Shown piece after piece: positions 14,917 to 48,396 of a stretch of DNA of 64,000 bases; the stretch's first letter is position 1, and each line of letters opens with the position of its first letter. Under the pieces are notes generated by a model. The model worked only from the letters and a program-made list of their open reading frames with translations, searched no databases and was not told the DNA's origin. The stretch covers positions 3,720,001-3,784,000 of the forward strand of contig JANTQA010000021.1 in assembly GCA_027625915.1 (NCBI GenBank), in the 5' to 3' direction. This DNA is from Anaeramoeba flamelloides (Eukaryota > Metamonada > Anaeramoebidae). The translations under genes were made by a program, and so were the position numbers.

Positions 14917-17710
14917 ATATTAACACCAAAAAGTAAAAATATAACAAAATGAAAATCTTCACAAAATTTTTTTATATACTGATAGAAAACTTTAAGAACT
15001 AATGTCTTTAAATAAGAATGATTTATATTAATTATATACAATCGGGATATAAAAAGTATTTTTCTTCAGCTAACAAACATGTCAATTTTTTTCAAATTTG
15101 ATTTAAAAGGTTGTTTTAACAAGATGAATATATTTTAGCTCCAAATTATAATTGAGATGTTTGAGAAGATGATCAAAATACTATCTATATTTTCAATAAT
15201 TATGGTTGTTAATTCCATTGAAAAATCATTTATTAATTTTTATTAAAAAATTGATGTTTTATTGAACATCCTTTCAAAAAAATTTATCAAAGGTAATTGA
15301 CAGAAAATTTTCTTGAAATAGTACTGAAATTTCTAGGGAATTTTTTTATTAAATGAATTGAAAATTAAGGGAGGGTTCAATGATCTAATTGATATTTGTA
15401 ATCTATATTCCCATTAATAAACCTGAAAATCAATTATTGAAAAACAAAATTCCCTTTTAGAAATAAACTCTATTTCAAAATCATTGGTCAATTAAAAATG
15501 AAATTTTTAAGAAAAATATTTTTAATAATTTAAGTTATCTATTATTATATAAAAATTTCTATTTTGATATTCAGTTATAGACTCAAAAGATATTTATTTT
15601 TCATCTATAAATAAAAGTTGGAAAAAGTAAAAAAAAAAACTATTAAAACAAATTTTGCCATTTATCTTTTAATAAGCATTACGTAAAAAATTGTAATTTT
15701 AAAAAATCAATAAAACCCATTTATCGCCCCCCCTTCGATTTAAATAACTAAATCTAATCTCTTTTTCATATTTGAAACCACTTTTTTCATTAATTCATCT
15801 ATTACTTGGTTCCAAAATTTCATTTTCTTTTTTCATTTTAACAAAACACTGTGGAAAAAATTAAAGAGAGAAAAAATGATTTATTTATGAACTTTCCATT
15901 TTAAGAGTAAAAACGTCAAAACCTAACAAATACAATTCAAAATTCAAATGCAACATGGGCCATTTATTATGAAATTTAGAAATATAATAGTAAAACCATC
16001 TTAAGTATATTTTCCCCCCCCCCCCCAATAATAATAACACTAATAATAATTTGGTTATAAGATACTTTATTTTCTTTTTTATTTAGATAATATGAAATGA
16101 TGGTTCTAGAATTAGTCCAATAAATATAAATAATAGGAACCAAATCATAAATATTTTCTGTATTTTTTAATTCGCCATTCTTTATTTATCCTATTATTTG
16201 ATTATTTGAAAATTAATTCTGATTTTATATTAATAATTATAGAAATAAATTCAAATTTAGCGTCTTCTAGTAGAGTGGAAATTAACATCTCACATAAAAA
16301 AAACAAAATTAAAGTATTTTTTTTTATTATTGAAAAGTAGTGATTCATCTAAATTACCCCCTGTTTGTCCACAGGTTTTTTTTTATTTTTGTTTTGATTA
16401 GACAATCAATAGATTTTTGAAACAAAAACAAAAGGTAAAAAAAAAAAACTAGGCTCTTCGCATTACTTTTTTTGAATTATTCAAATAAAAAGAAATTTTC
16501 AGATATTTTGTTTTTATTTATAATTAAATAGGAACTTAATTACTCTACGACACTCTACAGTACTTCCTGAAACTCTAAAATTATTGAATTTTTTTTTATC
16601 CTATTCATAGTTTAGGCAAGATAATAATTCATAATATTGATTTTTGTGTACAAAATGAAAAATAAAACTATGAATTTAAAACAAAGACAAGAAAAACAGA
16701 AAGAATACACAATAAAGAGGGCATAAAAAAAAATAATAAAAAAAAAATCATTGAAAAAGTTTAATTTTGCACTCCAAGTTTTGAACTGGTTAGTCTTTGT
16801 TTACTTTTATGTTGTATTTGTTTGAATCTCGACCATAATTTGTTTTAATAAAGATGTCTAAATATTTAAACAATTATACATCAAATGAAATATGTTACTT
16901 TATTAAGTTTTAATTTAGAATTCTAAACATGTATTGTGACATTAAAGCCACGAAGTTATTAAGAATAAGAATTTTATTTCAAACTTTTATTTTGAGCTTC
17001 TATATTTTTTGTTCAATTTTTATTTTTGTTTTTTATTAGTTTCCCAAATCATGTTTTCACAAAATCCCATTAGAAGACATCAACTAGATATCAAAAATGC
17101 AGTGCAAGTATTAACTTGACAGATAGTATGAACAGTTTGATTCAATTCCTCCACTATGGTTAGTTTCTTAAATCATATTGGTTGGGTTCAGTTCTCTTCA
17201 GTTATTTAAGTACAGTTCAATTCATTCAAGATCTGATCAGATAAAGTTAGTTTTAGATCCAATCATGAAGAAGTATATCAATTCTTATCATGATTTTTTT
17301 TGTGACTTTACCATCCCCCAACACAAAAAAAAAAAAAAAAAAAGGGGGGGACCTAAATGAATCATAAGGAACTTTAGGAACCTAAAGAACTTCAAAATGA
17401 TAATTTTGAAAAGATATAAAGTTTATAAAATCAAAAATAAAATTATTTAAAAAAAATCCAAAATAATAAAAATATCTTGAAAAATAGTTAGTATAAAAAT
17501 ATTTATTACTTTTGTATGTATTTATATAATAAAGATTGTTATATAAATAATAAATTTGATAAGATCAAAGATCTGATAAAAAGTTATAAATAATAAATTT
17601 TAAAAATATTTTTACTAAATTTCAGAGAGCAAGAAAAAAAAACAAAAGTAATCAAGAAAAAAATCCAAGAAGATTAACATCACAAAATATTTAAAATAAT
17701 CACAATAAAA
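14917..17710. other. AT-rich non-coding flank, left part of duplicated unit A
   Basis: No gene is seen. From about 15446 rightward the sequence is shared with copy B (from about 34003), with B lacking about 0.53 kb (15460-15990). From 16900 to 17710 the two copies are nearly identical and lie just downstream of the receptor genes' stop codons. A C-tract of about 14 bases lies near 16015. Confidence 0.7.
15470..15975. repeat. 505-bp diverged repeat also present in intron 2
   Basis: Similar to 22185-22675 in intron 2 of copy A and to the matching part of copy B (about 43985-44495). Landmarks are AATAAAACCCATTTAT, ATAACTAAATCTAATCTC and CATTAATTCATCTRTTAC. The divergence is far larger than that between copies A and B, so this repeat predates the tandem duplication. 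Confidence 0.7.
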
Positions 17711-19431
17711 TCAATTTTTAGATATTTGATGGATTGTATTTCTTCTTAAATTATTTAATTCAATATTTCTTTGCATTTCTATATCTGAATTTTCAGATGT
17801 TTCTGAATTTAAATTTGAATTTGATGATGATGATGATGACGATGAGGATGACGATGATTTTGATGATGATCGATTGGAACCACTCTTTTCATTTTTTTCT
17901 TTTTTTTTAGATTTCTTTAATGCTTTTTTGATTTCTTTTCTATCAAATTTACCTGTATTTCTTCTGATAACTTTTTTTATATTATCTTTTTTCCATACCG
18001 ATCTAGGGTCATAACCAATCGAATTGTTTTCTAATTGCTCTAATAAGATTAATTCCAAATTATTTTTCACTCCAAAGGTTGAAATAATGATTCCAAAAGA
18101 CCAGACTGTGAGAAATGCCATTATACCCAAGGTTTCAAGGCCTAACGAAATTAAAGATAAAAGTAAAAGGTAAGTGCCAATGGAAATCCTTGTTTCGGCA
18201 AAATATTTGGGAGGTTGCAATTTGTATTTCTTATAATAATCGATATATGTGGGTTTGAAGGGCCGAATCCAAACTAATAAAAGTGTTACAACTGCAAAAC
18301 AAGCAAATGTTATCCACCCTTGGTATTTTGGATACCGAGATATCATTATGATTATTGAAACAATTATTGCCTTTGAGAATAGTTCAATTAATTCCCACCA
18401 TATTTTGTTTGGGAGATATTTGTCAAATAACCAAGGTATTCGTTCTTTCCAGAAGATGATATTTGAAGCTCGTTTATAAATGATAATAATGGTCAAAAAA
18501 AAGATTGGGATTCCAAGAGCAAAAAATACGAGGATAATTACAAACAAAGGAAGATATCGATTCCATTTCCCATCTCCGAGGATAATGTTAAAATCAGCTT
18601 CCAATCGATACTCAGTTGTTCCATCGGTTTCTATTGGTTTGGCATCAAAGGGGGTTATTGATAGCACCAAAACTGGGATGTATATGAATTTTAGCAACAA
18701 GCCGAAATAATTCCAAAAAAAGCATGACAATTCCTTTTTATCCATTTTCTTGACATATTTTTTGTACAAACAGAAAAGGAAAAAGCCTATCATTAAAAAT
18801 AAATAAAAGAGAAATTTGATCAGATAGACATCAAAAAAATCAACTTTTGGAGAGATGCATTGAAAGGAAAAAATTGAATCAACATCAAAATTTGCTAATC
18901 CAATTGCCTTGGACACGGTGTCTATTTGACTTGGCCAATTTAATTGCATGCTGGTCACAATTGACATATATTGGAAAAAAGTGATAAAAATAGGGATCAT
19001 CATATTACTCTTGACTGCACCAAATCTTTCAATAAATGCCTTGATAGCACCCTTGAAAAAGAAAAAGAAAAGCAAAAAAATTGCCAATATGGCTGCAATA
19101 AAGACAATGAAAAAGATCCACACCCCTGATTTATAACATTCATAACATTTCCCTTTCTGGAATAAATATCCTTCCTCGCATACTGTACATGGGTGTTTAG
19201 TTGATTCATTAAAACCCGGTCTACATTCATTTTCACCTAAGCAGGCATCTTCATAAAAACATTTTATATCTTCCGAGTATTGTAATCCTTCAGTATTACA
19301 GAAGGTTCCTTCTTGACATATAAAACATGCCTTTTCCATTGACGTCTGGCCTGTAGAATTACCAAAATATTTTATTGGACAAACTTCACAGGAATCATAT
19401 GCAGATCTCTTTTTATCGGAAGAATACGTAC
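17711..19431 (-). CDS. Copy A exon 5: Cys-rich end, multi-TM domain and Ser-rich tail
   Basis: Begins at the acceptor ACAATAG, giving GTYSSDKKRSAYDSCEVC. More Cys-rich units follow (CFICQEGTFC, CTVCEEGYLFQKGKCYEC) and then hydrophobic segments at about residues 955-978, 995-1015, 1053-1074, 1091-1112, 1148-1173, 1200-1220, 1229-1248 and one or two in 1274-1310. Motifs shared with the gene at 59418 are GIPI in the fifth segment and a WWE or YWE just before the sixth. The tail has Lys-rich runs and 12 consecutive Ser encoded by a GAT-type repeat at 17820-17875. The internal Met at 19339 is not a separate gene start. Confidence 0.88.
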
Positions 19432-22400
19432 CTATTGTAGAATTTTACAATTTACCAATTTAATTTTTGATAAAAATAACCAAATTTTTTGAGGTTAATT
19501 AGAAAAATTATTTTTAAATTGGATGAATAACAGAACATCCCAATTTTATAATATTTATTTATGTATATATATATATTTTATTATTTATATTACATGAGTA
19601 ATATATTATTTTTGTTTTAAAATCACAAAAGACTTTTAAAAGCACCTTTTTCTCGAATTTTTTACATGTTTTTTCGTTTCATCCGTTGTTTTGTTTTATT
19701 TATATTTTGAAAAAGTCCTCAAATTCTCTTGAAATCATAATTTTCCTTTCTCAGATGTTAAAAAATACAAACAACGAATAAAAAAAAACAATGGAAAAAA
19801 AAAATTTATATGCAGGACTTTATTGCCTTAAAAGCCTTGGAAAACAATGGAAATTCGCGATTACCAAATAAAGCCATATTATTTTGCATTTAAAGCCATG
19901 AAAATAGTTTGAATTTTTTATTTTGAAAACACAAAATCATTACAAATTAGGTTTTCTATTTGAAACCCTTGAAAACCACAAACTCTTTAAATACCGAGAA
20001 AAAGAATTAATTTTGTTTTAACAAAATTTCTAGTAAGGAAAAAAAATGTTCAAAATTTAACTTTTTTACTAATTCCAAATTAGATCAGCTCACCTCATTT
20101 TTTTATGTTTGGATTACATACCTATATCAGACAAACTGATTTTAAGCTTCGCTCACACATGTAAAACCCGTTTTATGAAATCAAAAAAATAGTCCAACAT
20201 GTGATATAAATACAATTCCAAAAATTTGGGAACACCTAAAATCAAAAATAGGAAAAAAAAAAAAAACAATTAATGATATTTTTCCAAACTTAATATAAAA
20301 CCACATTTAAGTAACGGAATATTAATTTGTTTTTATAAGTAATCATTTTCATCCAAAAAAAAGAAAAAACAAAAAATGAAAAAATCAAAACCAGAGTGTG
20401 CAAAAGAATGAAACTAGTGGAACCAAAAATATATTGGTTAATTTGTTGAAATTTCACCAACATTGGTTGATCGATCAAATGATAAGATACCATCTCCGAA
20501 TTGAATGTGGATTTTCCATTTAACAAACTCACATTAACCTTCTATCAACCATCGAAAAAAAAAATTCCAGATCAAACCAAACAGATTAGGTAACTGAAAA
20601 AAAGGAAATGAAAACAAGACCAAATAGACATAAAATGAAATAGTTTTGTCAAATCAATATTATTTCCAAAATTAATTTAAAGTGGGGTATTGCAATTCTT
20701 TCAATTGTTTAAACTGTGTCCGAATTTTTGGAATTTAGTTTTATATATTATTATATAAAAATCTATAATCGTTGTTAAAAATTTGTATGGATATTGTCTG
20801 ATGTTTGATTTTTATTATTGTACGTTTCCATTTTAATTAAAATTTTTTTTTTAAATTCTGTCAATTGGGAATATTCTATTTTCAAAAAAGAATTTAGAGA
20901 AAAAATTATTTACCCTTTCCACATTCTACACAAGTTCCTGTCTTTCCATTTCCATATTCTCCCTTTACACATTCAACACATTCTTTTTTGTAAACACCGA
21001 AATTTTCATTTAATAAAGTGTCTTTAGTTTGATATCCTGGTTTACAATATGTATATTGAATAAAAATATCATGCATTACTATTGTAGAATTATAGATCAT
21101 TCCAATTCAAAAATTAAATTGAAGAAGAGAAGATAGATTAAATTTTAATTTAATTTGTTTTTTTTTATAATGACCAATAAAAACTAAAGTTGAAATACTT
21201 ACTCCAAGATTTACTGGTACTAGGAATTTGATAATCTGTTTCAATGACATTCGCCCACTTTGTGTCTATCTGTTGATGTATATTACCAGAAACAACATAT
21301 TTTTTTGGATTCTCGTCTCCATATGTTACAATTTTAAGAACATTACCTGTATGAATAATATTGATTATTTCGATCTCTTCATTGCCAGTTATTAAAAATT
21401 CTACATATGATCCTCCTTCATCAAAAACATGATTATTGCTTACTAATTTCTCAATCCTTCTATCTTCTTCCATTTTAATTGGGTATTTAAAAAGGTAACT
21501 ATCGAAACCCATGATAAATGCCTCATTACCTGTTTTAGTGTCATAACCTAAATATCTAATTGTGCTTAAGGCTGCATCATTACCTTCTATGTTCAATGTT
21601 GAAAATATAAGTCTCTTAATTTCCAAATTCAAATTAAAATCAAATTGTATTAAAAAGTAATCTATACGATCATAAGAATGCTGTGACAAACCCCCAATTA
21701 TTATCTTTTCTTTATGGGGGCTATAATCGATTGAATAACAATCCAAATAATTTGTATCGACATCTGTATCAGTTTTTATTCAAAATTATTAGAAATAAAA
21801 TTATTAAAAAGAACCAATTATCAAACAAAATATTTGAATAATAAAAGAGAAACAATTAGTTGGTTTGGGTTTATAGAATATCATTGTATTGTATTTTTGA
21901 CTTTTGCTGAGGATTTGATTCATCTTTTTTTTTTTTTTTTTTTTTTTGAGAATATTTCTGGGATTTTGTTTGAAAGTATTTTTAAACTATGTTTTAATAA
22001 TTGTAGTGGAATCAGGTTTGTTTTTTAATAAAAAGTTTTGCATCTTTACATCAATTTTCATTTTTTACCATTTCTAAATCGATTCTTTTCTGATATAATG
22101 GAACAAAAATTTATAAAAATATAGGAAAATCTTGTAAAAATCAAAGAAAAAAAAATGTTTTTGAGTATATAAACTATCATTCAAAATCATTGGCCCATCA
22201 AAAATCAAAATTTAAAGAAAAATATTTTTAATACTTGTAGTTATCTATTATAATATCAAAATTTTTATTTTAGTATTTGGTTCACTACTCCAGGGGTATT
22301 TGTTTTTCTTCAAAAAATAAAATAAAAAAAGTTTAAAAAAATTTTAAAAAAAATTGTGCCATTTATTTTGAATGAAGCATTACATGAAAAATAGAAAATT

Positions 22401-25400
22401 TAAAAATTAATAAAACCCATTTATGGATTCTCCTTCCGTTTGAATAACTAAATCTAATCTCTTTGTCATATTTGAAACCAATTTTTCCATTAATTCATCT
22501 GTTACTTCTTTCAAATTTTTCATTTTCATTTTCCATTTTGACATAACACTTTTGAAAAAATAAAAAAGAGAAAAAATGATTTATTTGCAAACTTTTCATT
22601 GTGAGAGGAAAAACTTCAAAAAGATACAAAAGCAATTCAAAATTGAAATATAAGGTGGACCATTTATTTTGATTTTTAGTTTATTTTTAGGCTGACGGGA
22701 AATGGACGAGTTAACCAAATTTAAATAATTTAGTAATTTGAGTCTGCTTTTTGAAATTCAAAATTTTATATGTTCTGATATAAAATCAAAAAAAAAAAAT
22801 CCATAACTTTTTATTTTTATTGACAATTAAATTTCTTTCTTTAAAATGATAAAATATATTTTTCGTTTTATGTTATAAAGTATTGATTTATGATTGAAAA
22901 TTTTTTATTTTGTAATTATTTTTAATAATTAATATTTAAATTCAAATTTTAGTAAATAGAACTTATAGAACTTCAGTGATCAAATAAATCTAAATTTGAT
23001 TGAAGCTTAGTTCTAATTTATCAATGAAATTGAGATCAAATAAGTTAAAAATAATTTATTCTTTAAGGTTTGAAAACAACCATTTTCATCTTTTAAAAAA
23101 AATGAAAAAAAATCATTTAAAAACACGACAAGAATAGCACAAAAATTTTAGTCACTTTTTTTACTTGTCAACGCTTTTTTTTTTTTCAAATTGTTCCAAA
23201 TTTTAAAAAAAAATCAAAGATCAAAATCCCACAACTTTCAATTTAAAAGTTATTTACAAGTTAAACTTTTAAAAACATGTAATTTAAACAGCTTTCCAAT
23301 TTTTGTTTTTCATAAAAATAGTTTCAGGATGTTTTTGAAAGTTTTCAAATATTTTTCTTTTCAATAACTTTCAAAAATTTCAATTAAATTCAAAATGTTA
23401 TCTTTTGTTAATTATTATTGTTTACCCTTTTTTCGGCTTATATAGGTTTGTACCAAGTATTTGAAATTTGAAAAAATATGAAAGAATATCAGAGACTGAA
23501 ATCTTGCAGACTGTCAGTCTGAAAGTTCGAAAAAGTCTTGAAAGTATTTGTATGGATTTTGCTATACTTGTCGTGAAGAATTTTCAAAAAACAAAATTTA
23601 TTTTACAAATTGTTTGTTCTTACTTTCAAGAATTTTTATAAAGTTATAAATCTTTTTCGAACTATAAATGAAATTGATTTTGAATTTTGAGGATAAAATT
23701 ACTTTATTCCCCAAATATATTTTTGAAAATTTTTTATTTAAAAAAATCAAATTTATATATCCGAACAAAAACACAATTTAATTAAGTAAAAATTTATAAA
23801 TTGTTCTTAAATTTCAATAATTATAATTATCCTTCTATTAATAAATACAGTTATACTTTTCAATCGGTGAGAAATATCAGTTTGTTGACAAACTATGAGA
23901 ATAATCTCAAAAAATAAAAAAAAAAAAAATTTATATTAATATTCTTGAAATAAAGTACTTTTATTGTACAATAGTGATGGAAACTGGAATAAAAGAAGTT
24001 AAAGCCTGTTAAAATATAAGAAAAACAATGAATTATTTAATTTTCTTTTTCTCTGAAAAACTATTAAAGAAAAATTGATCTAATTAAAAAAATTTTTAAT
24101 ATTTTAGGTTTCTTTACGTGACTAGTCTCTATTAATTTTTTTTTTTTGACCAATTTCTAAATAAGGAATCCTTATCTTGAAATATGTAAAAAATTGATAA
24201 ATAGACAGTTTTTTTCAATGTTAGAACTTTTAGTTCAAATTTTTTAAAAATTTTACAATTCTAGTCAAAAAAAGTGTATTTTAAATTTTTTTTGTTTAAA
24301 AAATTTCTTTAACGGATGAGAATTTTTTGTTTAATTTTGAATTTAATTATTTTCTCAAAATTAATATTTATTCTCATTTGAAAAATCAAAAAATAATTTA
24401 AAATTATTGAATATTTTCTTATTCACTTCTTTTCATTCAACTTTACTCTATAAAGAATTCAATTTGTCTTATCAATTATTACTTTTTTTAAAAAAAAGTT
24501 CTTATTCTTTTCTTTTTTTTTTTTTTTTTTCCCTGATAAAAACTATTGGAATGGTAATTTGGGAATATTTAAAAAAACTTCAAATTCAACAAAAACAAAA
24601 GTGTATAAACTCAAAAAGTGGATTCATGAAAAAAAGAATGGTACAACGAAAAGAAGCAAATTTTTTATTTTGAGTAAAGTATATATTGCATATTTTTTTT
24701 GAATCAAACTATTTTTCATGCCAATCCAAAAAAACCTTATCAGGTTTATTTTTCAAATTATTTTTTGTATGTCAACAACAAACACAACAAGGTTTTGCTT
24801 TCTTGCTCATATTTGTTTTTATTTTTTGTATTTTTGCCAAAAGTTGAAAAAAAGTAACTTTCAAAAAAGTGAAAAAAATGGATAATTTTTTCTTTCAATA
24901 AAAACTTTAATTAAATTTAATGAATGTCATTTAGTGAGATTCCATTAGTATAAAAAGATGTTTTTCAATTTGATTTCAAATCAAAGTAATTAACAAAAAA
25001 AATTTCAAAATATCTATTAAATTTACATAAAAAAATTGAATAGAGATTAGTCCCTTAAAGATTAGAATTTTTGATACTACACATCTATGATATTTTATAT
25101 GTAGAGTATATCATCAATAAAATATTTTAAAAATTTTCTCTGTATCATGGAAGAATAATCCATTGATTTTTTTTTTTTTTTTATTCTTATTTTAATTTAT
25201 AGTCTTAAATTTTATAAAAAATAGAGATTTTGATATCAAAAAAATTGGTTATATATCAAGATTGAAAAATAAATATACACCAAATTATAATTATTTAAAC
25301 TACCAAAAGTTGAAAATTCAATTATCTTAACCCAAAAACATTTTTTTTATTTTTAAAATCAATTTAATTTTCTCAAAATTACAAATAAACCATTTAAAAA

Positions 25401-26541
25401 GTTTAATCAAAGTAAAATTCGAAAATATTCCTCATTATTCGAATTAACATTTTCAATTTGGTTTTTTTAAAAAAATGTAAAAACAATTTTTAGAAAAAAA
25501 AAAAAATAATTTTATTTTGATAATCAATCAAGAATTAACTCAGAATTTGAGGTAATTCTAATAAAAATAGTAAATTAGTAATGGGAGTATTAATATCAAA
25601 TGATATGAATTCACTATTTACCCCTCTTGATGTTGATCCTCTCACAAGGTTTTAATTTATTTTTTTTTTCGTAACTTTCTTGATTAATGATATCATATAT
25701 TATCAAATTTGATATTTTTAAAGTCAGTATTTTTCTTTTACTAAACATACAAAGGAAATTTTTCTGATTTAAATTGTATTTTGATCTTTTATTATATTTT
25801 AACGAAAAGAGAAGATCAAAAAATGATTACAAGAGCTATAAATAATATTACAGTCTTTCCAAGGCTACCATAAATTTTTATATGAATCAAATTTTGAAGC
25901 TGATATAGATTTTTAAAAAGTTGGATATGAGAATAAGAAAGCTCATATCGAAAAAAATTTTCACAAATAACCTCATTTGAAAAATTTTCTTTTGAAACCA
26001 GAAAAATTATTTTTCAGATCCCTAAATTGCTTCAAACCTGGAAAATCTTTTGAGATGCCACTTAAAAGTTTCTCTTGAAAGACCGAAAATATTTTTGATC
26101 TTATCACAAGAAAATTTTTCAAATGAGGTTATTTGTGAAAATTTTTTTCGATATGAGCTTTCTTATTCTCATATCCAACTTTTTAAAAATCTATATCAGC
26201 TTCAAAATTTGATTCATATAAAAATTCACGGTTGCCTTGGAACAGCTGTAATAATAATAATTTCTATGGTTTCTATTGAGTCTTTATGTTTATTAGTAAA
26301 ATCAATAAGTAAACTGTATAAGAAAATAAAATCTCTAAAAAAATCACCTTTTTTATAGTTTTTTATTTCTTTCTTTGAATCGATAGGAATATCGATATAA
26401 ACTCTTTTTCAGTCAAAGGAGCCCAGTTTTATTGAAGAAATCGAATGCATTCTATGAGTTTAATTCATTACTCTTATAAAACTAAAATATTCAATTTTTA
26501 GATCAAAATCATTTTTTCTCATTTTGTAAAATTTTAGTTTT

Positions 26542-26579
<38 letters not shown>

Positions 26580-29292
26580 TTAACTTTGAAAAAAAAAATG
26601 TTTGAAAAACCAAATAAACATTAAGAAAAGTTAAGCTTTGTATGTTCTTTTGAAATTCATACATTTACAAGTAAAAAATCTTTTTATCAACAATTTTAAT
26701 TTCCTAAAGAAATTGAGAATTTTGCACGAGACCTTACAATGAATGTAACCCAAAAAATTTTTTAACATTATTTTTTTTTTGAAATTTATGATTTTTTCAT
26801 GGTTTTCTTTTATAATTGGGGACTCTTGTAAGAAGTTTATTATTTCTCGTATTTCTAAACAATCTAAGTTTGGCTGATTCTTAAAAATAAAGTGACTTTT
26901 TCATTTTTGGCTGAGCCCCTTTGAGTGAAATGGAGTTTATTATTCGGGTAAAAGCATTAAGGCTAAATAATAAAATATTAAAAAAATGAAAACCCAGGAA
27001 CTCTATGGTACTTAATTTAACACTTTAATACTATTCCGGACTTCTCGTCAACTTTAAAATGGTTATATGTACAATTATTCAAACCAAAAAATATATAATC
27101 AATCAGAAAATTGATTTATAAATTTTACTTTTGTTTTATATATATTTTTTTAGAAAAATCTAAAATTTTTTAAATGAACTGAGTTTTAATATATTTTGTC
27201 ATGTTTTCAAAGATGTAAATTATCTCTAAAGAATATATTAAATGATATCATTGAATTATAAAATTTATAATGATTTAAACTTTAGAATTTTGATTAAAAT
27301 TAGAAAAAAAAAAAAATCATAAATTTAGTTTAAAAATAATAAACGAAATTTTTACCTTCATACACATAACTGTCTGAATTTTTGACTTTTAATGTTGTCG
27401 AGTCGATAATATATAAAAAACATTCATAATGTTCATAATATTCATAATATTCATAATTATCTTCTTTTTTTTTGTCAGTCCCAACAGAGCCAGTAGCAAT
27501 AATTAGATTATCTATTTTATCAGCTTTTGAAATAACTTTCATTTCATTCAAAAATACTTGTGATTCAAATTCAGGATTAGAATAACAGTTTGAATTTAAG
27601 ATATTTTTACCATCATTAGATATCAATAAAATGTAATTTGTTTCCCCTTTCTGAATACAATTTTCGTCTATATTGGTATCACTAATTGAATTGTTTGTAT
27701 AAGAGTGGTAAATAATCTCACCATTTTTTTTCATTTCAAGATGATCCTGTCGCTCTTCAGCTATATATCGAAACCATTTAAAGTCCTTACCATTCCCGTT
27801 CAGTTTTGCGATAAAATTATTTCGTTCTTCGTATTCGTCTTCGTAAGTTTTGAAATCAGATTCCAAATCAATTCCAATTTCATCTTCGCCAAAATTGCTT
27901 GAGCCGCCTAGGATAAGATCATCTGAAATGGTATCAATTTCAATGTTCCAAATGTAAAAGGAATCATATTCACCTAAAAAATAAGAGATCCAGATCAACT
28001 CTTTGGCATCTAAAGATACTTTGACAATAAAATTCTGATCCAAACAATCCTGATAATCGAAATCATCATCAAAAAAATTGTTGATTTTTTTTTTATCTTT
28101 TACCATTTCCCAGTTGCAACCATCTGTAAAACCAGTCACTACCATGAAACTGTCATCCTGATTATCACTCGAAATTTTTACTGAGGTGTCCATGAAATAT
28201 TCAAATTCATCACTTCCTAAATAACTAAAAAAATAAGGGTCAATAATGATTGGTGAATTTAAATCAACAGAATCGATGAATTGTTGCTCAAAAAGAGAAT
28301 AAGCCACAATCCAATTAGAATCGTAATAGTCATTGATCTTTTGGTTCTTCTCAATGATTTGTGCTTTGCCACGGAAGTATTTTTCATATTGTTGGTAAAT
28401 AGGCGTGCTTTCTGAAAAAATGATTTTCTGATCATTTTGATTTTCTTTCACAAAATTCAATTCTCCGTTTGGGCCAATATTTAAATTGATTTCATTTTGA
28501 GACTTGTTATCATTCTCACTGTCACTTTTGCTCATCCTCTCGTCCCCATTCTTGTTTTTATTGCTCCGAAGGACGGATTTAATGGAATAATTTAATTTGA
28601 TTTGATTGAAATCAAAAGCCTTTTGTAAGATGAAAGAAGATTTTAAATGGTTTTGCGCAATTTCAAATTCAAGTGAAATATTTGGATAAATATTTTGATA
28701 TATTATTTTTTCAACATTGACAAATTGCTCTGAGCCAGTACTCAAGTTACCCTTTTGAAAGAGCTTGTTGATTGTTGTGTATTTGCTACCGTTCTTCCGA
28801 TCACTTTTGGACTCGATCGAGATCAATTCTTGTTCATTTGCTCCAAGAAAGGATAAATTAAGTTCGTGGATCTCTTCGTTGTCAAACAAGATGAAAATTA
28901 TCGACTCACGCCGAAAGCAGACTTGATATTTTTGCATAATAGATATCATCTCATATTCACACAAATTTGTCTTTTCTTCACTTAATTCATTATTCTTGAT
29001 TAAAATTGTTGGAATATTAATACCCTTCATTTCAGATTCTTTCTTTTGGTGTATAGGCTGGTGCTCTTTCCTTCTTTCCATTTGAGCCCTTTATTGATTT
29101 TTTGTTAGAAAATAGTTTTCAAAAAGTAAAGTACAATAAAAATCAAATCACAAAAACTAAGTTTAATTTTGAAAAAAAAAAGAGTAATAGTTACCTTGGC
29201 TGATAAATCTCATTATTTTCACTTGGTATTAATAAAATTGGTGCAACTAAGAACAAAAATATAATTAAATGGATAAAATAATTTTTCATCAT
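17711..29292 (-). CDS. Receptor-like membrane protein, copy A: propeller, Cys-rich stalk, multi-TM (1425 aa)
   Basis: Minus-strand exons: 29292-29195, 29088-27356, 21763-21203, 21078-20914, 19431-17711. All four junctions are GT...AG, and joining them keeps one frame of 1425 codons plus TGA, which strongly supports the model. Order along the protein: signal peptide (1-22), DUF7948-like domain followed by SBBP-like beta-propeller repeats (about 60-800), GCC2/GCC3-like Cys-rich units (about 808-950), eight to nine membrane passes (955-1310), then a basic and poly-Ser cytosolic tail. The first ATG (29292) is followed directly by a second, and either works. DUF7948 and SBBP repeats are known mainly from bacterial surface proteins, so the ectodomain is probably extracellular and ligand-binding or adhesive. 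Ligand and signalling role are unknown. Nothing in the sequence breaks this copy. Confidence 0.88.
19432..20913 (-). other. Copy A intron 4, 1.5 kb (empty LINE site)
   Basis: No coding sequence is seen. An open frame at 20290-20532 is low complexity. The matching intron of copy B carries a 3.1-kb LINE. The equivalent unoccupied site here is near 19515. Divergence from copy B is visibly higher than in intron 2 (for example AAGCTTCGCTCACAC here against AAGAGTCGGCCACAC). Confidence 0.8.
20914..21078 (-). CDS. Copy A exon 4: first Cys-rich units
   Basis: Encodes residues 798-852, with YCKPGYQT and CVECVKGEYGNGKTGTCVEC, the GCC2/GCC3 (ephrin-receptor-like) pattern of CxxC and Gly-x-Tyr. The acceptor ACAATAG and donor GG|GTAAAT keep phase 1 on both sides, so the exon could be skipped without frame change. 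Confidence 0.8.
21203..21763 (-). CDS. Copy A exon 3: end of propeller
   Basis: Encodes residues 611-797 beginning DVDTNYLDCYSIDYSPHKEK. Blade-like strands IIIGGLSQ, NEAFIMGF and KYVVSGNI fit SBBP-type repeats. The start comes from the acceptor CAG at 21764-21766, which keeps the frame of exon 2. The donor GGA|GTAAGT leads into a 124-bp intron. Many residues in the first half differ from copy B. Confidence 0.82.
21764..27355 (-). other. Copy A intron 2, 5.6 kb
   Basis: The donor is G|GTAAAAA and the acceptor is GATACAG. This intron is larger than the coding sequence and contains no convincing gene. It holds a 402-bp hairpin MITE (25849-26250), a 505-bp diverged repeat (22185-22675) and a 34-base T tract near 26540. 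Identity to the copy B intron is very high by eye, and part of it recurs at 32376-33995. Confidence 0.85.
25849..26250. mobile_element. 402-bp hairpin MITE in intron 2 of copy A
   Basis: Ends are TACAGTCTTTCCAAGGCTAC and the inverted GCCTTGGAACAGCTGTA, with TA flanks. Arms of about 140 bp are nearly perfect (TCATATAAAAATT, GAAAGCTCATATCG in both). The central loop of about 120 bp is in the opposite orientation to that in copy B. The open frame that crosses it is an artefact of the repeat. Confidence 0.88.
27356..29088 (-). CDS. Copy A exon 2: DUF7948-like domain and propeller
   Basis: Encodes residues 33-610. The DUF7948-like signature is visible in order: IYQNIYPNISLEFEI, NGELNFV, STPIYQQYEKYFRGKAQI, WIVAYSLFEQ and SPIIIDPYFFSYLGS. 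These correspond to the bacterial pattern of YPGIDLVY, GDL, PVVYQ, VGxYDxxxPLVIDPVL. SBBP-like propeller blades follow (DDSFMVVTGFTDGC, DDLILGGSSNFG, DNLIIATGSVG). A hydrophilic Lys/Asn/Asp insert at about 190-220 looks unstructured. The last 220 residues differ markedly from copy B while the first 300 after FDNEE are identical. Confidence 0.85.
29195..29292 (-). CDS. Copy A exon 1: signal peptide
   Basis: Encodes MMKNYFIHLIIFLFLVAPIL and a short hydrophilic stretch (SENNEIYQP). The donor is AG|GTAACT, and intron 1 (29089-29194) is only 106 bp. The next exon supplies the last base of an Arg codon, then Ala-Gln-Met, which is why the Met at 29081 is internal and not the start. Confidence 0.85.
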
Positions 29293-30694
29293 AATAACTG
29301 TTATGAACAATTCAAAAAAAATAAAAAAAAAGAATTCAAAAACAATTAAAAAAAAATGACCTTTTTTATTTTTTAATTTTGCCTACATATATTAATTAGA
29401 GGTTAATAAAATTGTCAAAAAGTTTGGGTTTTCTGTTGTTTATTGTGATTTTTAACAGAAATTTAATTTCTTTTCGTATATTTTCACATCAAATAATGTT
29501 TTTTCCAAAGAAAAAGTTTGATTTATTGAAAAAAGATTCCATTCTTGAATTGCTTTTTAATGATTTGTGGTCTTTCCTTAAAAAGATTTCAGAAAATTTG
29601 TTCCAAAGTTGAAACATTGTTTTGGTTTTTTTTAGAAGAAAAATACAAAATAATTGAAATATTCCATGATTTGATGAAAATTAACAAAGTATTGAGATAA
29701 TTGTGGGTAATAAAATTAAAAAAGATCAGAAATAAAAATTTTATTGTGAAAAAATTTTTTCTAAAAATCTTTCAAAATTAATCGAGTAGTAAATTTAGGA
29801 TATTAACAATAAAGTTTTTGGGAAATAAATATATTTTGGTAAAAAAAAAAATATTTATTTTTCAAAAGAATGAAAAAAATAGTATGAGACGAATTTTTAA
29901 ATTAAGAACGATAGAAAAGATTTTTATTTTTGGAATCAAAATCTTTCAAAATATGAAATATTATTAGGAAATTGGCTCATTTTTTTCCATTGATTATATT
30001 TTTCAATCTTCAAGTCAAATGAATGTGTAAAAAATTGGGAAACGTTTTTTTTTTTTCTGTCAATAAATATGAAAAAATCAATTCACTTTCGAGTTGGTAA
30101 AGAATGATTGAGAATTTGTCTTTGTTTTTTGGAAAATACACTCTATTGGTTTTGAACATTTAAAAAAAATGGAACAGTTACAAATGAGGGAATTATAAAC
30201 ATAGATGTGTTCTGAAAGATTTATTGGTTTTTGAGTTTTTAAAGAAAGATTCTTTTTTTGGTTAATGTGGTCTCTAATTCTAAGATTGTTAATTCGAAAA
30301 TAAAAAGATCAAAATTTTCATTCAGCTTTCCAAAAAAAACAATATTCTCTACGAATAGATAACAAAAAACCAAAGCTCGCAATTCTTTAAAGGTCATTAT
30401 TTCATTTTAACTTCGTTTTGTGAATTAAATATTTGAAATTTTAAATGATTTTTAATTCTTCTTTTGATGAAAAGTTGAATGAAAATTTTGACACATATAT
30501 TTAGCCTCAAATAGTACAGGGTTTCAAACCCTATTCTAAATAAAAAAAATTAAAAATAAATCATGTCCAATCTATATTTTTTTTTTCATAGTAAGATTTA
30601 TTGTTCTTCTAAATGAGGAAATTTTGAAATAAAACTATAGACTTTATATCCAAAGACCCTTTTCTGAAAATTCATTTTAATTTATTTGATTTAA
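29293..30694. other. Upstream region of the copy A receptor gene
   Basis: The presumed promoter region of the minus-strand gene, nearly identical to 51086-52964 apart from a MITE inserted in the latter. No gene is seen. It contains a relative of the 226-bp MITE at about 30285-30516. Confidence 0.7.
30285..30516. mobile_element. MITE, TACTGTTAATTG family (copy 4)
   Basis: The left end is degenerate (GATTGTTAATTCG). Internal TIR blocks are clear: CAAAATTTTCATTCAGCTTT at the left and GTTGAATGAAAATTTTG at the right, ending ATAGTA. The same element is present in copy B at about 52554-52787, so it predates the duplication. Confidence 0.65.
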
Positions 30695-34770: not shown

Positions 34771-34993
34771 TACACAGTCTTTACAAGTCTACCATAAAAT
34801 TTTAAATAAAATACAATTGATTTTTCTATTCTGATTTTCCATTTTCAAAAAATTCGGAAATAAGAGTTATTATGCAAAAAAAAATTTCAATAAATGAGCT
34901 ATTATTCAAATTTTTTGAAAATGTAAAATAAGAATAGAAAAATCGATTGTGTTTTATTTAAAATTTTATGATAGTCTTTGAAAGGCTTTAAAA
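34771..34993. mobile_element. Short deletion derivative of the same MITE family
   Basis: Begins ACACAGTCTTTACAAGTC after a TA and ends GATAGTCTTTGAAAGGC. It shares the arm sequence of the 34110-34552 copy but lacks most of its middle. It is absent at the matching place in copy A (near 16295). Confidence 0.7.
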
Positions 34994-36596
34994 AGTAAAT
35001 TAAAGTTTTTTTTTTTTTATTATTGAAAAGAAGTGATTCAATAAAAATACCCTCTGTTTGCACACAAGTTTTGATTTAATTTTTGTTTTGATTAGAAAAT
35101 CTATAGATTTTTGAAACAAAAACAAAAGGTAAAAAAAAAACTAAGTTCTTCACATTAGTTTTTTTTTGAATTATTGAAATAAATTGAAAAATTCAGATAT
35201 TTTCTTTTTATTTTAATAATTAAAAAAAACTTAAGCACTCTAGGGCACTCTACAGGACTTCCTGAAATTCTAAAATTATTGAATTTTTTTTATCCTATTC
35301 ATAGTTTAGGCAAGATGATAATTCATAATATTGATTTTTGTGTACAAAATGAAAAAAAAAAAAAATTAATTTAAAACAAAGACAAGAAAAACATAAAGAA
35401 TACACAATAAAGAGGGCATAAAAAAAATTAATAAAAAAAAAATCATTGAAAAAGTTTAATTTTGCACTCCAAGTTTTGAACTGGTTAGTCTTTGTTTACT
35501 TTTATGTTGTATTTGTTTGAATCTCGACCATAATTTGTTTTAATAAAGATGTTTAAATATTTAAACAATTATACATCAAATGAAATATGTTACTTTATTA
35601 AGTTTTAATTTAGAATTCTAAACATGTATTGTGACATTAAAGCCACGAAGTTATTAAGAATAAGAATTTTATTTCAAACTTTTATTTTGAGCTTTTATAT
35701 TTTTTGTTCAATTTTTATTTTTGTTTTTTATTAGTTTCCCAAATCATGTTTTCACAAAATCTCATTAGAAGACATCAACTAGATATCAAAAATGCAGTAC
35801 AAGTATTAACTTAGCAGATAGTATGAACAGTTTGATTCAATTCCTCCACTATGGTTAGTTTCTTAAATCGTATTGGTTGGGTTCAGTTCTCTTCAGTTAT
35901 TTAAGTACAGTTCAATTCATTCAAGATCTGATCAGATAAAGTTAGTTTTAGATCCAATCATGAAGAAGTATATCAATTCTTATCATGATTTTTTTGTGAC
36001 TTTTACCATCCCCAAACACCAAAAAAAAAAAAAAAGAGGGGGGACCTAAATGAATCATAAGGAACTTTAGGAACCTAAAGAACTTCAAAATGATAATTTT
36101 GAAAAGATATAAAGTTTATAAAATCAAAAATAAAATTATTTAAAAAAATCCAAAATAATAAAAATATCTTGAAAAATAGTTAGTATAAAAATATTTATTA
36201 CTTTTGTATGTATTTATATAATAAAGATTGTTATATAAATAATAAATTTGATAAGATCAAAGATCTGATAAAAAGTTATAAATAATAAATTTTAAAAAAT
36301 ATTTTTACTAAATTTCAGAGCAAAAAAAAAAAAAACAAAAGTAATCAAGAAAAAAATCCAAGAAGATTAACATCACAAAATATTTAAAATAATCACAATA
36401 AAATCAATTTTTAGATATTTGATGGATTGTATTTCTTCTTAAATTATTTAATTCAATATTTCTTTGCATTTCTATATCTGAATTTTCAGATGTTTCTGAA
36501 TTTAAATTTGAATTTGATGATGATGATGATGACGATGAGGATGACGATGATTTTGATGATGATCGATTGGAACCACTCTTTTCATTTTTTTTTTTT

Positions 36597-38122
36597 TTAG
36601 ATTTCTTTAATGCTTTTTTTGATTTCTTTTCTATCAAATTTACCTGTATTTCTTCTGATAACTTTTTTTATATTATCTTTTTTCCATACCGATCTAGGGT
36701 CATAACCAATCGAATTGTTTTCTAATTGCTCTAATAAGATTAATTCCAAATTATTTTTCACTCCAAAGGTTGAAATAATGATTCCAAAAGACCAGACTGT
36801 GAGAAATGCCATTATACCCAAGGTTTCAAGGCCTAACGAAATTAAAGATAAAAGTAAAAGGTAAGTGCCAATGGAAATCCTAGTTTCGGCAAAATATTTG
36901 GGAGGTTGCAATTTGTATTTCTTATAATAATCGATATATGTGGGTTTGAAGGGCCGAATCCAAACTAATAAAAGTGTTACAACTGCAAAACAAGCAAATG
37001 TTATCCACCCTTGGTATTTTGGATACCGAGATATCATTATGATTATTGAAACAATTGTTGCCTTTGAGAATAGTTCAATTAATTCCCACCATATTTTGTT
37101 TGGGAGATATTTGTCAAATAACCAAGGTATTCGTTCTTTCCAGAAGATGATATTTGAAGCTCGTTTATAAATGATAATAATGGTCAAAAAAAAGATTGGG
37201 ATTCCAAGAGCAAAAAATACGAGGATAATTACAAACAAAGGAAGATATCGATTCCATTTCCCATCTCCGAGGATAATGTTAAAATCAGCTTCCAATCGAT
37301 ACTCAGTTGTTCCATCGGTTTCTATTGGTTTGGCATCAAAGGGGGTTATTGATAGCACCAAAACTGGGATGTATATGAATTTTAGCAACAAGCCTAAATA
37401 ATTCCAAAAAAAGCAGGACAATTCCTTTTTATCCATTTTCTTGACATATTTTTTGTACAAACAGAAAAGGAAAAAGCCTATCATTAAAAATAAATAAAAG
37501 AGAAATTTGATCAGATAGACATCAAAAAAATCAACTTTTGGAGAGATGCATTGAAAGGAAAAAATTGAATCAACATCAAAATTTGCTAATCCAATTGCCT
37601 TGGACACGGTGTCTATTTGACTTGGCCAATTTAATTGCATGCTGGTCACAATTGACATATATTGGAAAAAAGTGATAAAAATAGGGATCATCATATTACT
37701 CTTGACTGCACCAAATCTTTCAATAAATGCCTTGATAGCACCCTTGAAAAAGAAAAAGAAAAGCAAAAAAATTGCCAATATGGCTGCAATAAAGACAATG
37801 AAAAAGATCCACACCCCTGATTTATAACATTCATAACATTTCCCTTTCTGGAATAAATATCCTTCCTCGCATACTGTACATGGATGTTTGGTTGATTCAT
37901 TAAAACCCGGTCTACATTCATTTTCACCTAAGCAGGCGTCTTCATAAAAACATTTTATATCTTCCGAGTATTGTAATCCTTCAGTATTACAGAAGGTTCC
38001 TTCTTGACATATAAAACATGCCTTTTCCATTGACGTCTGGCCTGTAGAATTACCAAAATATCTTATTGGACATTTTTTACAGGAATCATATGCAGATCTC
38101 TTTTTCTCAGAAGTATACGTAC
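36597..38122 (-). CDS. Copy B exon 5: Cys-rich end and multi-TM domain, tail lost
   Basis: Starts GTYTSEKKRSAYDSCKKCPI. The membrane part differs from A by only a couple of residues (NYLGLLLK, SKATIV). It ends RKEIKKSIKEI after the frameshift. About 65 residues of tail, including the Ser run, are then out of frame. Confidence 0.8.
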
Positions 38123-41100
38123 CTATTGTGTAATTTTACAATTTACCAATGTAATTTTTGATAAAAATGACCAAATTTTTTGAGGTTAATTGGAAAAATT
38201 ATTTTTATTTTTTTTTATTTTTGAAGAGAGAAAATTGCTTTTCTCCTGTGTGCCCTAATTTCTAAACTTTTTTTTAGAAATTTTGTTAAATAATCACAAA
38301 TTTTATTATCACTTACTAATGATAATATATATGATGAATTCTTTTTCTTAATAATATCTCTGATATTATTAATTTTTTTATTTTTTTCAAAAAATTCAGA
38401 TATCCAGATTTTTCGATTTATTTTATAGGCAGGACAGTCCCATAAAAAATGATCGAAATCTTCAATGATATCAATATTTAACTTTTCTTTACATAAATCA
38501 CAATTTTTATTTTTATTTTTACTTGTTACATAAGAGTACCTATTTAAACAATTAGTAAAATTTCGAAATTTTAGAATTGTTTTTGAAGCTTTCCAGTTTA
38601 AATATTTTTGTTGTTTGAAATTGCAATTTTGTTGTTTTATAATTTTTAGATATTGTTGAACTTTCCAACTAGGTGAATTTTCCAATTCGGTTAATCGAAA
38701 AACTTTTAATTCTAAATCTAATAATTTTAATCCCTTAGTGTGCCAATTAATATTTTCATTTTCCAATTTTCGAAAATTTAGTATTGTTTTTAATTTTTTT
38801 TAAATATAAGAAATCTAATTTTTCAATCAATTTATATTTTCTTCAGTATATTTTTAATCTAGCGAGATCAATTTTTGCTTCAGTTTTATAAATTAATCGT
38901 GGTGAATGGATATTAATTTGTAAGAAATTTGTGACTGATTTATTGATAAATCTATCAATTCTTTCAAAATCATTTTGTTTCAAGTCAAATATTTCAAGAC
39001 CATAATAAAGTTGACTTAAAATGAGAGCTTTGAAAGAAGTTATTTTGACTCCATTGTTGATTTTATTTTGTTGAAACAATCGATTAAGTGTTTCCAAGGA
39101 CTTTTCTACTTTTTTGAAATTATATTCAAGATGTGTGTTTTTTTCTAACCAAATCCCAAGATAAAAAATATCTTTTTAATTCTTTTTTATATTTGGTTTT
39201 TTTATTATGTGGGTTCATCCCGAATCTTTTTATTATTTCAAAAATACTTTCTAAATTAATTTTTAGAGAGATTAATGGCCCTTTCATAATAAGAATAAGA
39301 TCATCTGCATACATTTGAACATGAACAGCTAAAGTTTTTAACTTTTCTAGTAGGAAATGAGATATAAATGCGAAGAGAATTGGTGATAAGGGATCTCCTT
39401 GATAAACTCCAATTCCTTCTTTTTTTGTAATATCTCAAGAGCCAATTTTTAATTGTTTCATTTTTGATAAATTTTTTAATAGATTGATATATTAACGAGT
39501 GTTGTATAGAGTTAAAACATTTTTGTATGTCTATAGTAACTACAAAGTATTCTGTATTTTTATTTTTATTTTTTATTTTTTTAAATTTTCTTAATAAATT
39601 TAAAACAGCAATTCTTGTTCCAAAATATTTTTTAAATCCAATTTTTTTTTTTTGAAATCAAGTCCCATGAGTCTTGAATTCCAATGTATATTAATTTTAA
39701 AAAAATCTTGGAAGAGATTGATTTATAGAGATAGGTCGATAATTTAATGGTTCGCCTTCATCCCCCGATTTATGAATAAATAATAAATTTCTTTTTTTAA
39801 TAAAATTTATACTTTTTTCAGTTTCGTCTGTTATCCAATTTAAAAAAATATTTTGAACTGTTTTAATAAAATAATTATAATTTAATAAATATTGAATTGG
39901 TTGGTTTTTTATAAACTTATAATGATTTATTTTGTCAAATTCTTTAACTGATTTATTTTTTTGAAATTTGATTATTTCTTTAATTTTATCTTGATCAAAA
40001 AATTTCCTTTATGTCAATTGGATTTAATGAATTTTTATTAATTTTAAATTTTTTAATATAATTAATTATATTTGTATTAGGTTTTTTGACTAATTGATTT
40101 TACAAAATCGTTATACACTGTGAATATGGTTTCATTATTTAAAAACATTTTTGTAGAAGTTTCTCTTATTTTATTTAATGTTTTCCAAAAGTTTTTATTT
40201 TTATTATATTCTTCATTTATTTGATTAAGTAATTTCAAGTAATTTAATTCATTAATTTTTTTGATTTTATGTAAAGTTTCATTTTTATCAAACAATTTAT
40301 AAAGTAAATTATTAATTTTTAATTTATCTTGTTTGATATCAAATACTATTCTTTCTTACTGTTTATATTTTTTTTTAAATAAAATAAAATTTTCTTAATT
40401 TAAATTAAAATTCTGTCGAGAAAAGAATTGGAGAAAGTCTTCTTGAAAGGTTGGAATATCTTTAATTTTATAGATATCATTGATTTCCCAATTTGATTTT
40501 ATTTCAAATTTATTCATAATTGTATTATGATCACTAATAAAATTTTTGATAGTCTTTGATTTATTGAGTTTTAAATTATTAAAATTTGTTAAAAAATAAT
40601 CCAAATTGTTTGGTTTTCTACTTGGTTTATTATTAAGAAATAGTTTAAAATTAAATTTTCCAAATAATTTTATTTTGTTTTCATTTAAATTAAAATCACC
40701 ACCAATAATTGTTTTATTGTTTTGGTATTTTCTTAAGATATTTATTATTTTTTTATTAATTTCAATATTTCGGTCATTTCTCCGATATATAATAATAATG
40801 ATTAAATCAGTAAATTGTATTCTAAATCAGCAATTAATATTTCACGAAAAAATTCTAGAAATATCTTTTTTATTATTATTAATAAACCACCCTTATTTCC
40901 ATTATTTCCATAAGATTGTTTATTCACAGAGAAATAGTTTGTGAAAGTTGGTTTTTTTGTTATTTTGGATTCTTGTATTAAACAAATATTGATATTACAT
41001 TTTAATAAAATAGATTCTAATTTAAAAATTTTATTTGAATTATTCAAGCCACAAATATTTAAAGAGGCTATATTAATATTTATTTTTTGATTTTTATTTT

Positions 41101-41358
41101 TCATTTTTTTAGAACCTTTTATTAATAATCTTTGTTCTTCAAAAAATGTTTTATATATAAATCATTTGGAATATTTTTTTGTTTATTTATTAATATTCTT
41201 TTAAAAGTTTTTATTTTTTCGAGATTTTCCCAAATTACAAGTTTATTATTTCCTTTCCTTAAAAATCTAATAACACAATAATTATTTAAGAAATTAAATA
41301 TTTCTAATAAAATTATTTTTATTAACTGAACAACAGAACATAACAATTTTATTATATT

Positions 41359-41389
<31 letters not shown>

Positions 41390-42727
41390 TATTTTTTTAT
41401 ATTACACGGATAATATATTATTTTTGTTTTAAAATCACAAAAGACTTTTAAAAGCACCTTTTTTCAAATTTATTCTATTTTTTTTCGTTTCATCCGTTGT
41501 TTTGTTTTATTTATATTTTGAAAAAGTCCTCAAATTCTCTTGAAATCATAATTTCCGTTTCTCAGATGAAAAAACTTATAAATAATGAATATAAAAAAAC
41601 AATGGAAAAAAAAAATTATATACATGTAGGACTTAATTGCTTTAAAAGCCTTGGAAAACAATGGGAATTCGTGATTTCACATTGAACTCGTGGGTTTTGC
41701 ATTTAAAACCATGAAAATAGTTTGAATTTTTTATTTTGAAAACACAAAATCATTACAAATTAGGTTTTCTATTTAAAAAACTTGAAAACCATAAACTATT
41801 TAAACACTAAGAAAAAGAATTAATTTTGTTTTAACAAAATTACTAGTAAGGAAAAAAAATGTTCAATATTTAACTTTTTTACTAATTTCAAATTAGATCA
41901 GCTCACCTCATTTTTTTATGTTTGAATTACATACCTATATCAGACAAACTGATTTTAAGAGTCGGCCACACATGTAAAACCTGTTTTATGAAATCAAAAA
42001 AATGGTCTAACAAGTGATATAAACCCCATTCCAAAAATTTGGAAACACCTAAAATCAAAAATAGGCAAAATAAAATCTCCAATTAATGATATTTTCCAAA
42101 GATAATAATAAAACCAAATTTAAGTTTCCCAGTATTAATTTGTTTTTATCAATAATCATTATCATCCAAATTAAAGAAAACAATATAAAACTCAAAAAAA
42201 AAACAGAGTGTCCAAAATAATGAAACTAGTGGAACAGAAAAAAATATATTGATTAATTTGTTGAAATTTCACCAACATTTGTTGATCGATCAAATGATAA
42301 GATACCATGGACAAATTGAATGTCGATTTTCCATTTAACAAACACAATACTAACCTTCTATCGGCCATCGAAAAAATTTTCCAGATCAAACCAAACATAT
42401 TACGTAACTGGAAAAAAGGAAATGAAAACAAAACATAAAAGATAAAAAATGAAATACATTTGTAAAATCAAAATTATTTCCAAAATGAATTTAAAGTGGG
42501 GTATTGCAATTCTTTCAATTGTTTAAACTGTGTCCGAATTTTTGGAATTTAGTTTATATATTATTATATAAAAATCTATTATCACGGTTGAAAATTTGTA
42601 TGGTAATTGTCTTAGGATTGATTCTTTATTATTGTATGTTTCATATTTAATTAAAAAATTTTTTTTAAATTCTGTCAATTGGGGATATTCTATTTTCAAA
42701 AAAGAATTTAGAGAAAAAATTATTTAC
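38123..42727 (-). other. Copy B intron 4, 4.6 kb, carrying the LINE
   Basis: Without the LINE and one target duplication it would be 1491 bp, close to the 1482 bp of copy A. A TA microsatellite lies at about 41361-41381. Differences from copy A are frequent. Confidence 0.85.
38210..41308 (-). mobile_element. LINE (APE endonuclease plus RT), 3.1 kb, in intron 4 of copy B
   Basis: Minus-strand order: end of a first ORF (41308-41122), endonuclease start INIASLNICGLNNSNKI with CLIQESK (41104 on), endonuclease end with ISDHNT (40604-40395), linker, then reverse transcriptase. RT motifs are visible as HKSGDEGEPLNYRPIS near 39770, VVTIDIQKCFNSIQHSL near 39530, GVYQGDPLSPILF at about 39410 and YADD at 39311-39300. 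A C-terminal Cys-x2-Cys-x13-His-x4-Cys motif lies in 38766-38215. This order fits the L1/Tx1 or Jockey-like groups. The 3' end is A-rich and the 15-bp duplication AATAAAAATAATTTT flanks the element (38195-38209, 41309-41323). Several frameshifts split the RT frame and the 5' end is truncated, so it is inactive. Confidence 0.92.

Positions 42728-48355: not shown

Positions 48356-48396
<41 letters not shown>

Follow-up and report, generated by a model that had tools for sequence, protein, structure and literature searches.

A stretch of 64,000 nucleotides from Anaeramoeba flamelloides (contig JANTQA010000021.1, positions 3,720,001 to 3,784,000 of the forward strand; hereafter the window) contains two tandem copies, A and B, of a propeller-bearing membrane receptor-like gene. 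Comparison of the two suggests they are probably an old tandem duplicate that was later partly overwritten by gene conversion. Along this duplicate pair, closely matching tracts alternate with divergent ones in a mosaic: A and B differ by 8.6% in the second part of exon 2 and by 8.2% in exon 3, by 1.5% in intron 2 and by 10.5% in intron 4. The noncoding divergence of ~10% would represent the starting level of the old duplication, with conversion between A and B later overwriting at least three stretches. The most recent of these would run from the promoter to blade 1 (0.0-0.3%), the others being intron 2 (1.5%) and, within exon 5, the portion encoding the transmembrane (TM) segments and tail (0.3%). 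Islands retaining the original divergence would then be left in the exon 2 patch and from exon 3 through intron 4 to the start of exon 5. More weakly, conversions reaching the propeller face may have been lost to selection, A and B binding different things, which would leave the tract to stop at the splice sites of intron 2. We infer that the match was made by conversion and not by repeated unequal crossing-over.

The window is part of contig C22 in a 254-Mb, 76-contig genome assembly. Self-comparison delimits two tandem units, A (16299-30694) and B (34990-52964), the latter interrupted twice relative to A (3.1 kb at 38208-41308 and ~480 bases at 51705-52183). Unit A encodes a single gene on the minus strand, with five exons, GT..AG borders and a single open frame of 1425 residues. 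By order, this comprises a signal-peptide-like start (by eye), DUF7948, seven inferred blades, a Cys-rich stretch and a multi-TM part (by eye). The features are listed below in the direction of transcription, with differences between A and B given as fractions of the positions compared.

29293..30694, no strand: 5' flank of A, right end of the duplicated unit (4/1398)
29195..29292, minus strand: gene A exon 1, signal-peptide-like start by eye, from gene model and divergence (0/98)
27973..29088, minus strand: gene A exon 2 first part, DUF7948 and blade 1 (0/1116, apart from one 1-base indel in a T run)
27356..27972, minus strand: gene A exon 2 divergent patch, inferred blades 2-4 (51/593, indels of 18 and 6 bases)
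49172..49764, minus strand: gene B exon 2 divergent patch, counterpart of the A patch
21764..27355, minus strand: gene A intron 2, 5.6 kb (81/5426, 1.49%), putative homogenised tract, with a dispersed repeat at ~24.1-25.06 kb
43570..49171, minus strand: gene B intron 2, counterpart of A intron 2
21203..21763, minus strand: gene A exon 3, inferred blades 5-7, divergent (46/558, one 3-base indel)
43018..43569, minus strand: gene B exon 3, predicted acceptor 6 bases further in than that of A, sequence read directly
20914..21078, minus strand: gene A exon 4, Cys-rich (5/165)
19432..20913, minus strand: gene A intron 4, noncoding control (155/1474, 10.5%), with a dispersed repeat at ~20.2-20.76 kb
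38123..42727, minus strand: gene B intron 4, containing a LINE-like element at 38208-41308
17711..19431, minus strand: gene A exon 5, Cys-rich start at 19170-19431 (11/262), then multi-TM part (by eye) and tail (4/1456)
36404..38122, minus strand: gene B exon 5, frame broken in the tail by a 1-base T-run indel
16299..17710, no strand: 3' flank of A, 2.1% at 16676-17710 (22/1032) rising to 10.5% at 16299-16675 (39/373), with 83.6% and 82.7% identity further left

The AG of the intron 2 3' splice site in A (21764-21765) is altered in B (43570-43571). Because the next AG lies 6 bases further in, exon 3 of B is predicted to be two residues shorter.

The exon 2 patch differs from intron 2 in divergence level (Fisher p = 4e-19). 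Intron 4 is distinguishable neither from exon 3 (p = 0.13) nor from the exon 2 patch (p = 0.20), while introns 1 and 3 differ at 0/106 and 7/123 positions. An initial reading made from the sequence alone (the sequence-only reading) had proposed that the coding patches diverge far more than the neighbouring intron; this holds against intron 2 and fails against intron 4. A single near-identical intron can thus mislead when used as the contrast, another intron of the same gene giving the opposite baseline. The observations underlying that proposal were confirmed: exon 2 following the B frame break is identical over 27973-29088 bar the 1-base indel, intron 2 is nearly identical, and both the end of exon 2 and exon 3 are rich in replacements and in-frame length changes. 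The exon 2 patch has 37 replaced and 3 silent codons among 197 aligned, and the exon 3 open frame, which takes in a few intronic codons at its ends, has 31 and 6 among 200. Within the exons proper, 68 replaced and 8 silent codons are found among 382 aligned in both patches, and most coding changes do replace the amino acid, as had been noted. The 1.49% figure for intron 2 excludes 25957-26109, the flipped loop of a palindrome with 185-base arms (25829-26270 in A, 47642-48084 in B). With the loop included the count is 129/5563, 48 of the 129 apparent differences being due to the inversion of the loop region between the copies.

The left edge of the unit is graded. Divergence increases from 2.1% to 10.5% and collinear A/B homology then continues beyond the unit at 83.6% and 82.7% identity, hence the duplication is most simply old. 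Furthermore, intron 4 and the 3' flank edge, at 10.5% each, equal the patches, in support of an old duplication. Since the 5' flank (0.3%) and intron 2 (1.5%) differ in level (p = 6e-5), the later homogenisation would have occurred at two or more times. The same flanks bear on whether A and B could be two haplotypes misplaced in tandem by the assembly, which is very improbable. While the one-base homopolymer breaks in B are a typical assembly error, the left flank of A matches the right part of the spacer only patchily, at ~84% or less bar a 27-base inverted match at 93%. In addition, nothing in the spacer beyond 30701 matches 52.9-57.5 kb, and the window contains no N.

A hidden Markov model fitted to the A/B alignment favours three rates (lnL -1714) over two (-1742) or one (-2078), with gains of 28 and 364 log units respectively; the three rates, fitted with the palindrome loop left in, are 0.25%, 1.5% and 23%. 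Uniform shuffles give a 99.9% maximum of 422 bases for identity runs, and six runs, of 467-1397 bases, are longer. Half of these fall within 27970-30694; exon 5 with its 3' border accounts for two more and intron 2 for the last. With rates set by the analyst, support intervals place the exon 3/intron 2 border within 21762-21791 (splice site 21763/21764) and the intron 2/exon 2 border within 27351-27431 (splice site 27355/27356). Of the two outer borders, one lies in exon 2 (27970-27992, between blades 1 and 2) and the other in exon 5 (19352-19371). Under uniform borders, the probability of both borders matching the ends of one intron this closely is ~3.5e-4 (a post-hoc test).

The stop at the splice sites would also follow without selection if the long intron 2 had been copied, as a large insertion during gap repair, into a short-intron copy of the gene. 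The splice-site borders would in that case simply be the limits of homology. This variant overlaps with the old duplication followed by conversion, and we consider it somewhat unlikely. It is consistent with the tract borders at both splice sites and with the closest paralogue (L003, contig C64, about 1187-1403), where intron 2 occurs at the same position and phase with a length of ~0.2 kb (read by eye). No copy of the whole intron besides those in A and B was present among the 65 places returned, the other matches corresponding to the nested dispersed repeat (~950 bases, mostly 85-89%) or to shorter pieces, so that the intron does not look mobile; intron 2 as a mobile element was rejected on this basis. 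Intron 4 contains another dispersed repeat, with matches mostly at 81-86%. Set against the variant, a short-intron allele of A or B is not known, and nothing here separates intron copying from selection-limited conversion.

Conversion from a third family member had also been suggested. In this scenario the duplication would be young (1.5%), and the patches of one copy would derive from a third homologue or allele, diverged by 10% and lacking the long intron 2. A heterologous intron loop left uncopied would then make a single ~3 kb tract appear split by intron 2. Indeed, once intron 2 is removed, the patch and the run from exon 3 to the start of exon 5 form one continuous divergent stretch, and the C64 paralogue demonstrates that short-intron relatives exist. 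We searched the one 254-Mb assembly for a donor, with the searches scoring the best candidates only. The B exon 2 patch matched only B and A (2/2 places). The region from exon 3 to exon 4 of A gave long matches at A and B only, the remainder being a 63-base stretch at 81% on contig C34. Hence no donor carrying a patch with its silent sites was found among the matches returned. The next protein relatives among those matches, both on C64, are 35% identical for exon 2 and 32% for exon 3. In addition, the left edge of the unit is 10-17% diverged, unlike a young duplication. It is possible the donor was lost or resides on another haplotype; overall, a third-copy donor is unlikely. A cDNA-templated conversion of the exons alone was rejected, as introns 3 and 4 diverge too. 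The last exon of this receptor type has many relatives in the genome. Searching with the exon 5 protein gave 74 places, counting A, B and split pieces; the closest beyond A and B, on C64, is 50% identical.

The preponderance of replacements had been read as the reverse of neutral expectation and as a sign of diversifying selection, with a ratio of nonsynonymous (dN) to synonymous (dS) divergence above one at low dS. With a transition/transversion rate ratio (kappa) of 2, counting puts the exon 2 patch at dN 0.112, dS 0.045 and dN/dS 2.5 (p = 0.013 one-sided, 0.027 two-sided), and the exon 3 frame at dN 0.087, dS 0.070 and dN/dS 1.24. Introns 2 and 4 contain 80 transitions and 151 transversions, and kappa is therefore near 1. 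The ratio of 2.5 was dropped as a conclusion because a kappa of 2 is not that of the locus. For both patches together, the counted ratio is 1.37 (Fisher p = 0.19, bootstrap 0.09) when kappa is 1, and 1.72 (Fisher 0.04, bootstrap 0.006) when it is 2. Codon maximum likelihood with kappa fixed at 1.06 yields 1.11-1.18 for both patches (p > 0.58) and, taking them singly, 1.75-1.87 in exon 2 (p = 0.19-0.25) and 0.99-1.00 in exon 3; loops b-c and d-a come out at 0.97-1.05 and the remainder at 0.88, with no test reaching p < 0.18. A dN/dS significantly above one with low dS was not found with kappa near 1, and was nominally found with kappa 2.

Among single-base codon changes, 49/57 are replacing (86%) and 8 silent (14%), where the mutation spectrum of the locus itself predicts ~80% replacing and 19.8% silent (p = 0.32). 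The excess of replacements is thus in line with neutral expectation. Silent divergence in the patches is ~15/218 sites, as estimated by counting, with paths averaged for codons that carry several changes; rather than being low, it exceeds that of intron 2 (p = 3e-6) and does not differ from that of intron 4 (p = 0.12). Since the silent sites of the patches resemble intron 4 and not intron 2, silent and replacement sites both carry old divergence there. The patches do not look accelerated; it is the rest that looks homogenised. The equality of silent, intronic and patch divergence that was to speak against selection is seen for silent sites and intron 4, and is absent for intron 2. The pattern is not proof of accelerated evolution, and the claim of diversifying selection is not upheld when kappa is that of the locus.

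We aligned the gene with relatives L058 and L059 to infer seven SBBP-like blades. In propellers, the b-c and d-a loops lie on the same face. With loop classes taken from the sequence alignment and assigned by hand, the A/B differences being already known, 50/158 codons are replaced in loops b-c and d-a, compared to 6/55 in loops a-b and c-d (p = 0.0023) and 12/169 in strands (p = 1.4e-8). For blades 2-4 alone, the corresponding figures are 29/81, 1/28 (p = 5e-4) and 6/86 (p = 6e-6). Omitting a poorly alignable loop from blades 2-4 leaves 18/65 in b-c and d-a, with p = 0.0099 and 7e-4. An independent blade profile, built from 20 blades of relatives with A and B left out, gives the same register within ~1 residue where it covers; mafft, run in parallel, placed blades 3, 6 and 7 poorly. 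The profile matches blades 1-4 of A with i-Evalues of 6.8e-7, 2.4e-6, 2.9e-5 and 6e-4 (7 targets). Replacements appear to sit mainly on one inferred propeller face, in agreement with that part of the sequence-only reading that placed them on a ligand-facing propeller. The concentration on one face is compatible with selection that maintains the difference between A and B, though no proof of it, and part of the loop pattern would also arise by relaxed constraint in long loops.

The same concentration is what one would expect if strong diversifying selection on the ligand face had changed the patches fast, neutral sites having stayed at the level of intron 2. The count-based ratio of 2.5 with kappa 2 points the same way, as do loops b-c and d-a, where ~64/389 nonsynonymous sites differ compared to the 155/1474 of intron 4 (p = 0.002 with kappa 1, or 0.09 without the poorly alignable loop; 0.0006 and 0.04 with kappa 2). 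This must be weighed against a maximum-likelihood dN/dS of ~1, silent sites and an intron 4 as divergent as the patches, and a silent share of 14% where 20% is expected. Fast change of this kind is quite improbable.

The indels of the divergent exons, of 18, 6 and 3 bases, are all in frame. No frame-breaking indel occurs in 1578 divergent exonic bases, compared to 11 in 1597 bases of introns 3 and 4 (Poisson P = 2e-5). Hence, the reading frame was kept while replacements accumulated at an approximately neutral rate.

The DUF7948 family (PF25778) is matched above the Pfam cut-off of 27 by both A (45.2 bits, E 1.4e-11) and B (44.9 bits, E 1.8e-11), as in the DUF7948/SBBP (PF06739) propeller proteins, and blades 1-4 fit the profile of relatives. 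Paralogue L006 matches both families in Pfam. In contrast to these proteins, the A exons fall short of the Pfam SBBP model, with no repeat above cut-off in exon 2 or the exon 3 frame, and the propeller of A and B is linked to a multi-TM part and a stretch rich in Cys. No solved structure matched A exon 2 at E up to 1; paralogue L058 has 22 matches, all from residue 721 on, corresponding to the Cys-rich part. Bacterial relatives were rejected as an aid to structure alignment, the scan giving a single locus at 22% identity. SBBP was not found in the literature on protist beta-propeller receptors among the matches listed.

The A/B pattern appears to be of a recognised kind, resembling the human red/green opsin pair. 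In the published account, the opsin introns are homogenised and divergence peaks in exon 5, explained by selection restricting conversion (PMC3924837). Like A and B, the opsins are duplicates lying close together, whose introns diverge little on either side of a coding peak. The opsin case differs in that the direction is evident from other primates, with two functional substitutions identified (PMC3924837), whereas A/B is known from one genome. Unlike the opsin pair as described there, A/B has one neighbouring intron (intron 4) that is also highly divergent. GOT1p1/GOT1p2 of Tigriopus californicus are likewise paralogues that diverge in exonic islands and are more alike in the surrounding sequence; both selection and a neutral limit to conversion are weighed for them (PMC3728101). 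The GOT1p pair is without introns, conversion events are visible in several populations, and orthologue Ka/Ks is much below one, while for A/B the comparison is between paralogues (PMC3728101).

We tentatively propose, as a joint claim that is possible but doubtful, that the propeller face is kept different (perhaps among strains too) by selection against ongoing conversion, so that opsin-like islands would occur in a non-animal SBBP-propeller receptor, with the 5.6-kb intron 2 homogenised exactly between two selected exons. If selection does hold the islands, the pair would point to the ligand face of an uncharacterised protist receptor type.

Several observations weigh against the account of an old duplicate with converted stretches and islands that kept their divergence, including its selective part. 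The maximum-likelihood dN/dS of the patches is not significantly above one. The scaffold segments are low at silent sites too (5/132, p = 0.0096 versus intron 4), and this low silent divergence is not explained by amino-acid constraint. Selection on exons is furthermore not the whole account, because intron 4 escaped homogenisation. The mosaic is in part fine-grained, without long tracts: hidden Markov states switch over short stretches, also within intron 2, and the differences form clumps not just in exons but in introns 2 and 4 too. Blade 5 of A is weakly matched by the profile (i-Evalue 0.011) and blades 6-7 are unmatched, blades 5-7 being assigned by hand. Conversion direction and dates cannot be read without an outgroup. 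Finally, B may be dying, or its frame breaks may be assembly errors.

B contains two such 1-base T-run frame breaks, in early exon 2 and in the exon 5 tail, both outside the divergent patches. Because the surrounding stretches are otherwise 0-0.3% different, the breaks are either recent or assembly errors. The insert in B intron 4 (38208-41308) resembles a long interspersed nuclear element (LINE), with reverse-transcriptase-like fragments (by eye) and a target duplication of ~13 bases. Its longest open piece is 194 codons. Of the 51 other places returned for this element, 45 are 97-99% identical, one 96% and five 70-89%. Dating the A/B split by this insert was abandoned, the family being young and so uninformative on the 10% level. 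The ~480-base insert located 5' of B (51705-52183) is flanked by TA and its ends resemble short inverted repeats (by eye). It has relatives in the window at about 76%, 51704-52078 resembling 58505-58873 and 51713-51982 resembling 311-584. Beside the pair, an open frame of 1562 codons at 59313-63998 on the plus strand reaches the end of the window. This corresponds to another receptor-like gene, with a TRP-like end below cut-off and 18 Ephrin_rec_like stretches (PF07699, E 4e-67).

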